Source of the DNA: Sinomonas sp. R1AF57
GTDB lineage: Bacteria > Actinomycetota > Actinomycetes > Actinomycetales > Micrococcaceae
Assembly (NCBI RefSeq): GCF_002224485.1
Contig: NZ_CP022463.1
Location: forward strand, 3,531,483 to 3,595,482
Direction of reading: 5' to 3'
Length of the DNA: 64,000 nucleotides
The notes under the pieces are model-generated. The model saw only the letters and a list, made by a program, of their open reading frames with translations. It was not told the DNA's origin and ran no database searches. Positions 42,465 to 64,000 of this stretch are shown here, piece after piece (position 1 is the stretch's first letter; each line of letters starts with the position of its first letter). Position numbers and translations under genes: made by a program.

Positions 42465-42487
42465 GGTCATGCTCCCTTGCATGTTGC

Positions 42488-42655
42488 GGTGGTTGAGCGG
42501 AGTCGAAACCCCGGTGATTGAGCGGAGTCGAAACCCCGGTGGTTGAGCGGAGCCGGCGGTTGAGCGGAACCGGCGGTTGAGCGGAGCCGGTGGTTGAGCG
42601 GAGCCGGTGGTTGAGCGGAGTCGAAACCCCGGAGGATTGGGCTCCGCTCAACCGC
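42488..42655. repeat. Tandem GGTTGAGCGGAG repeats between ALDH and ADH genes
   Basis: Seven forward copies of (G/A)TTGAGCGGAG(T/C)CG or a one-base variant occur between 42490 and 42622, with unit lengths alternating between about 18 and 26 bp (the longer ones include AAACCCCGG). One inverted copy, CTCCGCTCAACC at 42642-42653, closes the block so that a long hairpin can form. The sequence is the same family as the repeats at 233-373. It may terminate or attenuate the ALDH transcript before adhP. The region between the two genes (42465-42663) holds nothing else. Confidence 0.75.
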
Positions 42656-60275: not shown

Positions 60276-60432
60276 CGCTGGCTCCGTTCGTCAGATGCCT
60301 CACTCGCTGGACACGGCAAGATTGCGCGTCCTGTCACGAAGGTTCAAGGGTCCGTGACGGCGTGACAGGAACCGAAGAGTTGCCAACACCGGACCACGGG
60401 GTTGCGTTCCGCGGCGCGGGGCTTCCCCGAGG

Positions 60433-61371
60433 TCAGCGCCAGAACGCCGCGAGCCGGCCGGCCAGGGCCGTGCCTTGGCTGTGGCCGGCACGCGCGGCCA
60501 TCGGGCGCAGGGTGTGGTCCATGGCGTTGGCCCCGAACAGGTGCTCGGCGCTGCTGTCCGGGAAGACGGTCTCGACCCTGCTGCCGCCGGCACGGAGCTC
60601 GTCGACCTGTGCCGCGAGCTGCATGCGCCACTCCATTGGATGCCGCGTCCTGCCCCCGAACGGCGACAGCACCAGCACACGCCGGTATCCGGCTGCCAGA
60701 TCGGCGTTCTCGTTCCGTCGGTATCCGCCGTCGATGTAGCGGCTGGTGCCGACGGCGTAGGCGAAGCCGCTCGAGCAGCTTGCGGCGACGGCGTCCACCA
60801 GCTCGACTCCGGCGTCGCGGTCGAACACGGCGGGCTCCCCCGTCACGGCGTCGACGGCGGTGATCAGCAGCCGCCGGTCCGGCCAGCCCTGGCTCGGGAG
60901 GCGGCCGGCGACGACGGCGCGCCACCGGGCGTGTGCCGTGCCGTCCATTCCTGCGTCCCTCTTGAGCGCGAACACGCCCATCCTGCGGCGCATGTCCTCG
61001 GGATCCTGGGCGGCGGCGATGATCTCCGCGGTCCTCTCGAGCTGGCCGGCCACCCTCCCGGTCGCGGCGCGCCCGCCCTCAGGCTGCGGCGTTGCGGGCC
61101 TTGCGTGCTCGGGGGCGGCGAGGACGGCGGCGTAGAGCTCGGCGGGGCTGGCGCCGATGATCTGGGCGGCCGCGGTTGAGCCCGCGGAGGTTCCGACGAT
61201 CAGGTCGGCGTCGGTGACGTCGAGTCCGGCCTCGGACAGGCCGGCGATGACGCCGATCAGCCAGGCGTTGCCCGTCGACCCGCCGCCGCCGAGGACCAGG
61301 GCCCTCTCGGCTGGGGCATCGGGGGCGTGACGAGGTGAAGACGGTGCTGTGTTCAAAGGTGCTGTGTTCAT
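60433..61371 (-). CDS. Patatin-like phospholipase
   Basis: The 312-residue lipid acyl hydrolase shows the oxyanion loop GGGGSTG (28-34), the nucleophile motif GTSAGS with Ser62, and the dyad aspartate in YIDGGYRRNENADLA. It lacks a signal peptide. Such RssA-like proteins act on membrane lipids or as intracellular esterases. The ATG at 61371 is preceded by AAAGGCGACTCCC; the frame extends upstream through the repeat array but only as low-complexity sequence. It lies alone, 157 bp before the protease start on the same strand. Confidence 0.88.
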   Translation of the reverse strand: MNTAPLNTAPSSPRHAPDAPAERALVLGGGGSTGNAWLIGVIAGLSEAGLDVTDADLIVGTSAGSTAAAQIIGASPAELYAAVLAAPEHARPATPQPEGGRAATGRVAGQLERTAEIIAAAQDPEDMRRRMGVFALKRDAGMDGTAHARWRAVVAGRLPSQGWPDRRLLITAVDAVTGEPAVFDRDAGVELVDAVAASCSSGFAYAVGTSRYIDGGYRRNENADLAAGYRRVLVLSPFGGRTRHPMEWRMQLAAQVDELRAGGSRVETVFPDSSAEHLFGANAMDHTLRPMAARAGHSQGTALAGRLAAFWR

Positions 61372-61570
61372 GGGAGTCGCCTTTCGCGAACGTGCCTCTC
61401 GGGCGCTCCCGGTGGCGACTAGCTCAATCGCGCGATCGTGGACTGCGGGGGAGCACCCACTGCGGATACTGCGTTCATGGGTCTCACCTCCTGCCGATGC
61501 GTCACGATCGCCCGAAACGTAGCACGGCACCATACGGCCGCACAATGCTCCCCGCCCCCACTCCGCCGAG

Positions 61571-61800
61571 GTCACCCCCTGTGAGCCCGAAGTCACCCCG
61601 TGTGGGCGCGAGATCACCCCCTGTGAACGCGACGTCACCCCCTGTGGGCACGAGATCACCCCCTGTGAACGCGACGTCACCCCGTGCCTCGTCTGAACGG
61701 CGTGACCTCGGCGGCACACGGGATGACCTCGGCGGCACACGGGATGACCTCGCGCCCACACGGGATGACCTCGGCGGCACACGGGGTGACCTCGGCGGCC
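61571..61800. repeat. 21-bp tandem array that reverses orientation in the middle
   Basis: The 598-bp gap between the patatin and PRC-barrel genes holds six units of exactly 21 bp at 61571-61696, each starting (G/A)TCACCCC(C/G)TGTG. After a short centre (61697-61705) the reverse complement follows in 21-bp steps to about 61800 (CACACGGG(G/A)TGAC ends at 61706, 61727, 61748, 61769 and 61790). The two arms are complementary, so single strands could fold into a long stem. The rest of the gap (61372-61570 and 61801-61969) shows no gene; a weak AT-poor promoter region precedes the PRC gene. Confidence 0.85.
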
Positions 61801-61969
61801 ATGTTTTGGCCGGGGAAGCCTTGGGTACTGGTGAGTCATTCGCGCGCCGGACAGCGGCTGCCGATGATCACGGTCGGCGCGGCTGGCGCGAGAACAGCCA
61901 CTTCCCTCAAGACACGGGGGTACCGGAGAAGGTATGGCACGATCCAGCAGACCAAAGGAGAAAATCACG

Positions 61970-62848
61970 ATGGTCACACGCGAACAGTTCGACACCATTA
62001 CGCCCGGCAACGGGGACGTCATCGGCCAGGACGGCGAGAAGATCGGACGGATCGGGGACCTCTACCTCGATGACGACACCAACAGCCCGAACTGGGTCAC
62101 GGTCAAGACCGGGCTCTTCGGCACGCACGAGTCCTTTGTCCCCCTGCACGACGCGAGCGTGCGCGGCGAGGACATCGTGGTGCCCTACACCAAGGACCAG
62201 GTGAAGGACGCCCCCCGGGTCGATCCCGACGGGCACCTCGAGCGCACCGAGGAGGACCGGCTCTACACCCACTACGGCCGCACCGCGCCGTCCTACGGCA
62301 CCGGCGAGGGCATTGGCGGCGACGGCCTCCGCGGCGACGGGCGCACCGACGCGCGGGCAGCCGGCGGCGTGGAGCCGGGCTACGACGAGGGCACCGGCAC
62401 GCGCCGCGCTGACGAGGTCACCGGCACCGAGGGTCGCGACACCTCCGGCCCGACGACCGACGACGCCATGACCCGCTCGGAGGAGCGGCTCAATGTCGGC
62501 ACCGAGCGGCAGGAGACGGGCCGTGCCCGCCTGCGCAAGTACGTGACGACCGAGAACGTCACCAAGACGGTCCCGGTCCAGCGCGAAGAGGTCCGCGTGG
62601 AGCGCGAGCCCATCACGGACGAGAACCGCGGCGCCGCGATGGACGGCCCGAACCTCTCCGAGGAGGAGCACGAGGTCACCCTCCACGAGGAGCGGCCCGT
62701 GGTCGACAAGGAGACTGTCCCTGTGGAGCGCGTCAAGCTCGGCACAGAGACCGTCACCGACAAGGAGACCGTGAGCGAGGACGTCGCGAAGGAGCACATC
62801 GACACCGAGGGTGTCGAAGGTGAGGGCCTGCGCCGGCGCGACCGCTAG
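61970..62848 (+). CDS. PRC-barrel and DUF2382 domain protein
   Basis: The 292-residue protein has an N-terminal PRC-barrel (about residues 8-80: NGDVIGQDGEKIGRIGDLYLDDD, WVTVKTGLFG, FVPLHDASVRGEDIVVPY). A Gly/Asp/Thr-rich linker follows, then a C-terminal DUF2382 region (SEERLNVGTERQETGRARLRK, VQREEVRVEREP, LHEERPVVDKETVPVERVKL) and an acidic end. DUF2382 proteins (YsnF-like) are linked to stress responses in Firmicutes and Actinobacteria. The ATG at 61970 is chosen because AAAGGAG lies 11 nt before it. A strong terminator follows. Confidence 0.88.
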   Translation: MVTREQFDTITPGNGDVIGQDGEKIGRIGDLYLDDDTNSPNWVTVKTGLFGTHESFVPLHDASVRGEDIVVPYTKDQVKDAPRVDPDGHLERTEEDRLYTHYGRTAPSYGTGEGIGGDGLRGDGRTDARAAGGVEPGYDEGTGTRRADEVTGTEGRDTSGPTTDDAMTRSEERLNVGTERQETGRARLRKYVTTENVTKTVPVQREEVRVEREPITDENRGAAMDGPNLSEEEHEVTLHEERPVVDKETVPVERVKLGTETVTDKETVSEDVAKEHIDTEGVEGEGLRRRDR

Positions 62849-62861
62849 CGGCAACGCACGG

Positions 62862-62907
62862 ACGACGGCGGGTGGGCGGCGCAGCAGCGTCGCCCACCCG
62901 CCGTCGT
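62862..62907. terminator. Terminator hairpin between convergent genes
   Basis: Perfect 17-bp arms (62862-62878 and 62891-62907, core GGCGGGTGGGCG) enclose a 12-nt loop. It lies between the stops of the PRC-barrel gene and the Fe-S oxidoreductase gene, and can end transcripts from both sides. Confidence 0.8.
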
Positions 62908-62913
62908 GCGTGC

Positions 62914-64000
62914 TCAGGCCCGCGCCCGCAGCGCCTGGGCGAGGACCTGCACGAGGTGGCTGCTCTCCAGGCCGGCGAGGTCGCGGACCTGGGTGCGGCA
63001 CGAGAAGCCGTCGGCGAGGATGGCCCGGTCCGGCGCGTCCGCGGCCTTCGCGAGGATCCCGCCCCGGGCGATCCGCTCGGACACCTCGTAGTGCCCCGCT
63101 TCCATGCCGAAGTTCCCCGCGAGGCCGCAGCACCCGGCCGAGACCTCCGCGTCGCATCCCATGGCCTCGAGGAGCGCGCGGTCGGCGCCGTAGCCCATCA
63201 CCGAGTAGTGGTGGCAGTGCGGCTGGACGAGCAGCCTCTCCCCCACGTGCGGCGGGTCCCACCCGATGCCGGTCAGGAACTCGGCGACGGTCTTGACGGC
63301 CCCCGCGAGCTCGGCGGCGCGGGGATCGTCCGGGAGGAGCTCCGTGAGGTCGGAGCGCAGGGTCGCGGTGCAGCTCGGCTCGAGCCCGACCACCGTCCGT
63401 CCGCCCCTCACGTGCGGCACGAGCACGTCGAGGGTCCGCCTCAGGCGCGCCTTCGCTGCGGTGAGCTGCCCGGTCGAGATGTACGTGAGCCCGCAGCACG
63501 CCCCGGCGCCGGCGACCTCGACGTCGCACCCCGCGGCCCGCAGCACCTCGAGAGCGTCGCGCGGGACTGCCGGGTCGAGCGCGTCGGAGAACGAGTCCAC
63601 CCACAGCAGCACGCGCGGCGCCCCCGCGGGGGAGGGCGCACGACGCCGCGCGGCCGGGTCCCAGCGGAAGGGCGCCGCGGGCAGCCGCGGGAGCGAGCGG
63701 CGGCGGTCCGCCCCCATGAGCGCGAGCGCGGCCCGCCGCAGCGGCGCGACCCGCGCGGCGGCATTGAGGAGCAGTGCGAAGGGCGCCGCGACGCGGAGCC
63801 ACTGCGGCAGCCGGCCCAGGGTGTAGTGGCTGCGCGGGCGGATCCGGCCGCGGTAGGCCTCGAACAGGGTCTGGGACTTGTAGGCCGCCATGTCGATCCC
63901 TGTCGGGCAGTCCGTCGCGCAGGCCTTGCAGCTCAGGCACAGGTCGAGGGCGGCGTGCACCTCGGGCGACCGCCACCCCAGCCGGACCACGCCCCCGTTG
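62914..64000 (-). CDS. FAD/Fe-S oxidoreductase, C-terminal part (partial)
   Basis: This is the 3' portion of a gene that continues past the window edge. It contains half of a ferredoxin-type Fe-S motif (LDLCLSCKACATDCPTGIDMA) and two CCG (cysteine-rich) domains with AGACCGLTY and SAGCCGLAGNFG, like the C termini of glycolate oxidase GlpC-type and YdiJ-type proteins. The segment WRSPEVHAALDLCLSCKAC is typical of fused FAD-binding/Fe-S dehydrogenases of about 950 residues, and no start is seen in the window. A GTG at 63990 is an internal codon, not the likely start. D-lactate or 2-hydroxyglutarate type substrates are usual for the family. Confidence 0.85.
   Translation of the reverse strand, partial: NGGVVRLGWRSPEVHAALDLCLSCKACATDCPTGIDMAAYKSQTLFEAYRGRIRPRSHYTLGRLPQWLRVAAPFALLLNAAARVAPLRRAALALMGADRRRSLPRLPAAPFRWDPAARRRAPSPAGAPRVLLWVDSFSDALDPAVPRDALEVLRAAGCDVEVAGAGACCGLTYISTGQLTAAKARLRRTLDVLVPHVRGGRTVVGLEPSCTATLRSDLTELLPDDPRAAELAGAVKTVAEFLTGIGWDPPHVGERLLVQPHCHHYSVMGYGADRALLEAMGCDAEVSAGCCGLAGNFGMEAGHYEVSERIARGGILAKAADAPDRAILADGFSCRTQVRDLAGLESSHLVQVLAQALRARA

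Follow-up and report, generated by a model that had tools for sequence, protein, structure and literature searches.

The window analysed here is a 64,000-nucleotide stretch of the genome of a Sinomonas strain (Micrococcaceae), which is assembled as one contig of 3,939,870 bp and is labelled G000 below. At 61567-61794 it carries an array in which a 15-bp centre separates six 21-bp units in forward orientation from five in inverted orientation, listed as L080 in our family scan. The array and its neighbours, with genes placed by a codon-usage caller whose runs differ in detail, are as follows.

60433..61371, minus strand: patatin-like phospholipase gene (Pfam PF01734, 2.9e-11, and gene calls)
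61567..61683, plus strand: left arm, six boxes (CGAGGTCACCCC and variants) at 21-bp spacing with five complete linkers
61684..61698, no strand: centre of 15 bp where the strand changes, placed from the sequence and from the spacing of 18 across the switch
61699..61794, minus strand: right arm, five inverted boxes at 21-bp spacing, three of them with the TCATCCC variant
61934..62848 (start perhaps 61970), plus strand: PRC-barrel/DUF2382 protein gene (Pfam PF05239 and PF09557, and gene calls)

Both flanking genes turn their 5' ends towards the array, the patatin gene from about 195 bp away, so that the array lies upstream of both and is intergenic, as a first-pass annotation had it. In the unit scan, plus-strand units start at 61567, 61588, 61609, 61630, 61651 and 61672 and minus-strand units at 61690, 61711, 61732, 61753 and 61774, giving five spacings of 21, one of 18 at the switch and four more of 21. 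Tandem Repeats Finder reports period 21 at 61567-61683 (5.6 copies) and 61703-61799 (4.6 copies), as well as period 42 at 61567-61686 (score 198), and inverted arms at 61563-61662 and 61699-61798 are 78% complementary. The constant period and the six-plus-five arrangement described in the first-pass annotation are thus confirmed. Its motif, TCACCCC(C/G)TGTG, does not hold for all of the units: three right-arm units read TCATCCC and the innermost box of each arm lacks TGTG; the strand switch that it put near 61700 is real and lies at 61684-61698. An Rfam search of 60300-63100 returned two matches far below the gathering score, both outside the array, and an Rfam-known RNA was rejected on that basis; a plasmid origin was rejected for want of a match. 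Elsewhere in the window, at 229-397 and 42487-42620, there is another, GGTTGAGCGGAGTCGAAACC-like tandem repeat with periods of 82, 25 and 17.

Judged by its sequence, the focal array is certainly one member of a family. The pattern GTCACC, three times at 21-bp spacing with one mismatch allowed, matches G000 147 times (61 + 86) as against 0 + 2 for the reversed pattern, and controls of this kind rule out chance as the origin of the arrays. A position-weight scan of 47 stretches around listed matches found at least 55 arrays (a lower bound), with at least 298 units and at least 69 arms of two or more units. Each unit consists of a conserved box of about 12 bp, CGAGGTCACCCC, and a variable 9-bp linker, and an array has a box at both ends, in the form (CGAGGTCACCCC + 9-bp linker)n + CGAGGTCACC(CC), usually with CGC before it. 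There are 186 box matches; among the 100 listed, most stand at 21-bp spacing, and no array was present in the stretches around four isolated matches that we followed (L081, L083-L085). The same 9-bp linkers are met again both inside one array and in different arrays, and the arrays are indeed not CRISPR-like. A further 21-bp-spaced motif, GGGACATGACCCCTCAA, occurs beside or apart from the main family, at G000:C1:242219, 331052 and 618080 and also in L027 (G012) and L208 (G002).

The first-pass annotation was right to name the Micrococcaceae, to which Sinomonas belongs. A pattern scan of named genomes gave eight stretches, every one from Sinomonas sp. ASV486. Among 15 genomes of the genus the GTCACC pattern has 147 matches in G000, 162 in G003, 133 in G014, 112 in G011 and 72 in G008, from one to six in six others and none in four. 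Across 396 genomes of the order it has at least one match in 170, with 147 and 112 in two of the three Sinomonas genomes included; outside the genus the maximum is nine per genome, and the reversed control reaches six in one genome. The 112 matches in G011 belong to a different 21-bp unit, CGGGGTCACCTCCCAGCGATG, and a narrower pattern gave zero there; the narrower pattern therefore counts one unit form only, and 'absent in many species' had to be rejected as a reading of it.

Conservation of the array at this locus, which the first-pass annotation had proposed to check, was not found. Eighteen stretches were compared, ten around patatin orthologues and eight around relatives of the PRC-barrel gene (which has paralogues, so that orthology is not certain), and none has an array beside either gene. 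In the six genomes with both genes, either the two are on separate contigs or more than 1 Mb lies between them. Homology to relatives stops short of the array by 42-73 bp (by 265 bp in G008) and begins again 105-224 bp past its other end, which together with the missing arrays places the focal array at a junction seen only in G000. Recombination between arrays may have produced this junction. The strand switch itself is the ordinary layout of the family: the same convergent arrangement is found at 20 other close pairs in G000, so that an assembly artefact at the focal switch is very unlikely and was rejected. Two observations concern the patatin side: 61356-61509, upstream of the gene, is 88-89% identical in G003 and G014 where the gene-side match is about 71-72%, and is a putative conserved leader or promoter region; and in G007 a 54/135-bp tandem repeat lies near the patatin orthologue (L091:1325-1701), at a contig end.

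Where the arms lie was determined for 134 of them in four genomes (69 in G000, 27 each in G003 and G014, 11 in G008). Intergenic arms number 94, while 34 are inside predicted ORFs and six overlap ORF ends; the first-pass description of the sequence as non-coding is thus correct for the focal array and wrong for the family. Fifty-seven arms start within 30 bp of the 3' end of a gene, which is 57 of the 71 whose box-first end points towards a 3' end (median distance 13 bp), and in 23 of the 94 intergenic arms, as at the focal locus, the box-first end points towards a 5' end (median 68 bp). In 85 of the 94 intergenic arms (40 of 48 in G000 alone) the end closer to a gene is the box-first one and not the tail. 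These counts are not independent because G003 and G014 are sister species and arms are paired; among arms without a close partner the rule is followed by 22 of 28 in G000, G003 and G008 (p = 0.004) and by 15 of 20 in G000 (p = 0.04; 14 of 19 under a slightly different pairing rule). It is weaker for the G011 unit (17 of 26), and L171 and L187 are arranged < >. Of 22 consecutive arm pairs in G000 with a gap below 1.3 kb, 21 are convergent and one is divergent, the gaps ranging from about 0 to 1.1 kb. A strand polarity by contig half was rejected, with 13+/13- and 20+/23- in halves that were set without a located origin or terminus.

The arms inside ORFs fall mostly between domains. A Pfam scan of ten array-bearing proteins put the arrays in linkers or termini in eight: the E2 acyltransferase (after the lipoyl and after the E3-binding domain), LigD, DnaX, a kinase-PabB fusion, a LUD protein, a DUF4194 protein, a PRTase-TRSP-StiP-type fusion and an AidB-like acyl-CoA dehydrogenase. 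In MoeA and an HrpA-like helicase the array is an insertion inside the Pfam match; in TilS, an eleventh case, it lies between the PP-loop and TilS domains. The array in the AidB-like dehydrogenase occurs in G000 only; an alignment with 13 relatives shows the linker that holds it to be variable. The DUF4194 gene (L076:2942-3885) has an array at each end and is flanked by DUF3375 and AAA_29 genes, the three of which we take to be JetB, JetA and JetC of a Wadjet system.

It might be argued that the repeats are in essence protein features, with selection for flexible spacers acting on linkers and tails of heptapeptides (AEVTPSG, GVTSAPQ) and the intergenic arms left as relics after stop codons moved upstream. 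In our own reading, 10 of 15 species have seven-residue repeats in the first as well as the second E2 linker, and both the short median distance to 3' gene ends and an in-frame C-terminal tail in an aldehyde dehydrogenase speak for this account. We nevertheless consider this improbable: the two E2 linkers share one DNA unit in opposite orientation and their peptides differ, several frames are in use (GDLGATR, KSPRVDP), and the 23 arms that face 5' gene ends, the focal one included, are not accounted for.

Evidence on how the arrays change comes from the sister species G003 and G014, whose best flank matches are 96-99% identical. At all ten distinct loci that they share (12 rows, less one mis-paired and one duplicate locus) the array is kept, and at all ten the unit number differs in at least one arm, for instance 12 against 4, although counts vary with the scan rule's treatment of off-phase units and some in the drafts G014 and G008 could reflect assembly error. 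In the aldehyde dehydrogenase (family assigned by Pfam) the in-frame tail has seven heptapeptide repeats in one sister and two in the other. Growth by local duplication is therefore well supported.

Places are kept over longer distances as well. Of 40 stretches from G003, G008 and G014, sampled by similarity to the focal array and not at random, 27 have, as judged by eye, a G000 arm at the corresponding place and in the same orientation; among the other 13, two share the gap and not the arm, nine have no counterpart among the G000 stretches and two have a counterpart without a matching arm. A rule-based recount gives 29 of 40, the two gap-only stretches included. Flanking DNA at kept places is 70-89% identical across species. 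Where a GT4 glycosyltransferase gene neighbours the gene for formate-tetrahydrofolate ligase, the intervening gap has arms in G000, G003, G014, G008 and G004 (two boxes), two boxes on the other side in G013, a short inverted pair of its own unit in G002 and other, GGGTCACC repeats in G007; the family unit was not seen there in G001, G005, G006, G009, G010, G011 or G012. Short repeats of the GTGACCCCC type lie directly upstream of the ligase gene in G007 (L216) and G000 (L059:11690-11730). Between the same two genes, G003 (L162:6600-14000) and G014 (L163) have a block of about 7 kb, among family arms, with genes for an MFS transporter, a DHDPS-family protein, an aldehyde dehydrogenase, an MR/MLE-type enzyme and others (by Pfam), which is missing at that place in G000. 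As for what defines a VNTR, copy number does differ between close relatives, and the place is fixed for the family and not for the focal array.

That so many places are conserved between species bears on another explanation, a REPIN- or MITE-like mobile element moved by a transposase in trans, which the dispersed, mostly intergenic inverted pairs would suggest. We regard it as extremely improbable. The Y1 transposase of the RAYT family (PF01797), the one transposase family searched for, matched none of 15 Sinomonas genomes and 5 of 14 in the control, and a RAYT-moved element was rejected on this result; gaps between paired arms extend from about 0 to 1.1 kb, and paired arms are not near-copies. 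A cargo transposon with array ends was also rejected, since the DNA between the arms in E2, which includes the E3-binding domain, is native. For six of the more widely spaced arm pairs, checked by eye in an all-against-all BLAST of the masked stretches, the intervals between the arms gave one weak 66-bp match.

Kept places do not imply a kept unit. Two classes occur in E2, the GCCGAGGTCACCCC form (ACCCC class) in G000, G003 (with its sister G014), G008, G012 and G013, and GCCGAG(G/A)T(C/G)GGG (GGG class) in G002, G007, G010 and G011. In these nine species, compared without the near-copy G014 and without G004, whose linkers are degenerate and of no clear class, both linkers are mainly of one class, ACCCC in five and GGG in four; linkers in G001, G005, G006 and G009 have other repeats or none. 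As noted, linkers 1 and 2 use one DNA unit in opposite orientation. Their mean identity is 0.70 within a species and 0.42 between species (the latter excluding pairs within the ACCCC group), and the match to a species' own other linker exceeds the best foreign one in only two of the four GGG-class species, clearly in G010 and narrowly in G011. Linker 1 ends in a single GGG-class unit in G008, G013 and G004, as if one class had replaced the other there. In tilS, too, the ACCCC class of G000 and the GGG class of G002 both lie between the PP-loop and TilS domains.

Comparison of the 9-bp linkers gives a mixed result. Within arms their similarity is 0.817 (61 G000 arms). Between G008 and G000 (nine arms), orthologous arms are at 0.501 and unrelated between-species arms at 0.500, with different loci at 0.559 within G008 and 0.645 within G000; between G003 and G000 (18 arms), orthologous arms are at 0.619 and different loci within G003 at 0.521. 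Homogenisation within species has the support of E2, of tilS and of the comparison with G008, and not of that with G003; no exchange event between arrays was observed.

Within units, the box changes least. Differences per site in intergenic arms are 0.108 for the box, 0.073 for its GTCACC core and 0.249 for the linker, the constraint figures being based on 647 units over all arms, eight of them recovered by spacing alone. At the T and C of the core, which hardly vary, an effect of the scan threshold is unlikely; at weaker positions it may play a part. The conservation could reflect selection or, alternatively, a process in which only units with an intact box get copied, and it fits a putative binding site without proving one. 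It is worth weighing whether the box is the site of a sequence-specific DNA-binding protein, with arms serving as polar barriers or insulators where genes border on one another and protein and site coevolving so that the class shifts across a lineage. Box conservation within intergenic arms, the box-first orientation (85 of 94, and 22 of 28 without a close partner), the 21 of 22 convergent close pairs and the conserved places all speak for such a protein. On the other side, no candidate protein was found, arms inside ORFs occur in both orientations, which is hard to square with insulators, off-phase spacings are tolerated and the G011 unit follows the orientation rule less closely. Ten of the 15 genomes have from zero to six GTCACC-pattern matches, so that the binding system would have to be dispensable or use another unit there. 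We consider this account possible, if doubtful.

The idea that the 21-bp period places every unit on one face of the helix is not supported. Spacing is exactly 21 in 351 of 364 intergenic steps and in 142 of 142 steps inside ORFs (p = 0.02), where the reading frame requires it; the 13 off-phase intergenic spacings, to be set against a minimum of 472 within-arm substitutions, mean that 21 bp may simply be the inherited unit length.

Nor did the proposed cruciform fare well. The focal array is predicted to fold strongly (RNA -153.8 kcal/mol, z -10.7; DNA -85.6, z -8.95), and the opposed arms might on that account be taken for a cruciform or a bidirectional RNA hairpin terminator. Yet linker similarity is lower between paired arms (0.536, n = 15) than between different loci (0.621), so that hairpin pairing is not maintained and coevolution of the two arms was rejected, and the one single arm tested, the focal left arm, has an unremarkable fold (z +0.44). 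Moreover, 20 of 48 intergenic G000 arms have no intergenic partner within 500 bp, and the focal array, 5' of both genes, does not qualify as an intrinsic terminator. This role is very improbable, and the strong predicted fold is best read as a by-product.

Termination might instead involve Rho, if the arrays were rut-like loading sites that end transcripts leaving genes. The box-first orientation after stop codons and a box C/G of 1.94 would agree with this, but the linker has a C/G of 0.46 and the whole unit 1.05, so that there is no net C-over-G bubble, and a rut composition was rejected on the whole-unit value. In addition, a CACGACG/CGTCGTG motif, which we take to be terminator-like, occurs on the tail side, no more than 150 bp past the arm, in 26 of 100 arms, against 11 of 100 beyond the head and 13 of 125 array-free gaps in the same stretches; transcripts may thus end further on. 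We find Rho loading very hard to credit.

The reading that we consider probable is that of a dispersed minisatellite (VNTR) family that grows by local duplication, is partially homogenised within species and is somewhat constrained in its box. Arms lengthen and shorten through local tandem duplication, as the unit-number differences between sister species show, presumably by slippage or unequal exchange. Members would settle at sites that can accommodate additional DNA: directly downstream of stop codons, in other intergenic positions, and in linkers between domains, in which a 21-bp unit, being seven codons, keeps the frame. Many places are long inherited while unit sequence appears to be swapped between places within a species, and a lineage may switch unit class at several sites (both E2 linkers and tilS), probably by ectopic gene conversion. 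The focal locus would then consist of two independently grown arms, tail to tail, between divergent genes that lie apart in relatives, and a strong function there in particular is unlikely. Some constraint on the box, through a binding protein or a need for intact boxes in copying, is likely but unproven.

One point against a minisatellite family of this kind is the convergent pairing (21 of 22), which neutral growth does not explain. It is tempting to speculate that a trans-acting sequence-specific factor, either a binding protein or a copying enzyme, rewrites the 21-bp sites jointly within a lineage, its specificity drifting (GCCGAGGTCACCCC as against GCCGAG-TCGGG or -TGGGG) while the places stay fixed, and imposes the convergent, box-first layout where genes border on each other and in domain linkers. 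We think this rather unlikely, but if true it would show concerted evolution of dispersed sites in a bacterium, with a protein coupled to it. Descriptions of bacterial minisatellites usually treat each locus singly; here, one family in gene flanks and in-frame linkers, with kept places and a class that differs by species, makes it possible to test in a bacterium whether short dispersed repeats evolve in concert. The arrays also offer a natural series of linker-length variants in the core enzymes E2, LigD and TilS and a possible VNTR typing system for Sinomonas.

We found no account of these arrays in the open-licence PMC literature, including Sinomonas repeat and genome papers as represented by their titles and the starts of their abstracts, and in a word search neither 'Sinomonas' nor 'tandem' occurs in a REP survey (PMC12306157). 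REP/REPIN elements (PMC3116915) are likewise dispersed intergenic inverted pairs; the Sinomonas arrays differ in having no RAYT match, no special fold in a single arm, tandem arms and many kept positions. Borg repeats (PMC9879509) evolve fast, occur in gaps and in ORFs, where their units are divisible by three and often form disordered regions, and are said to arise independently on archaeal extrachromosomal elements. The fast evolution, the occurrence in gaps and ORFs and the divisibility by three are shared with Sinomonas, whose unit family, in contrast, is common to many chromosomal sites. The TAACTGA direct repeats of Beggiatoaceae (PMC4679880) are similar in being one short tandem unit dispersed through the genome, mostly between genes; their unit is 7 bp and lies mostly just upstream of start codons, whereas that of Sinomonas is 21 bp, more often follows stop codons and forms inverted pairs. 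A system of 25-residue coding repeats spread between taxa shares dispersal and variable numbers of repeats in ORFs, but the Sinomonas unit is 21 bp, mostly non-coding and of one genus. The DNA uptake sequence dialects of Neisseriaceae are short, dispersed, lineage-specific sequences with inverted pairs near gene ends, present as single copies in very high number; lineage-specific versions and inverted pairs are the likeness, and the tandem arrays of Sinomonas are the difference. The reading preferred here corresponds to bacterial VNTRs, of which the MIRU-VNTR loci of M. tuberculosis are one example. Another minisatellite is the 57-bp VNTR of leuA (PMC2704214), and such loci share with the Sinomonas arrays a tandem structure, fixed loci, changing unit number and, for some, a location within genes. 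The Sinomonas arrays stand apart from them as one 21-bp family at no fewer than 55 places, in which inverted pairs are frequent, the box is constrained and other species can have a different unit class at a corresponding place.
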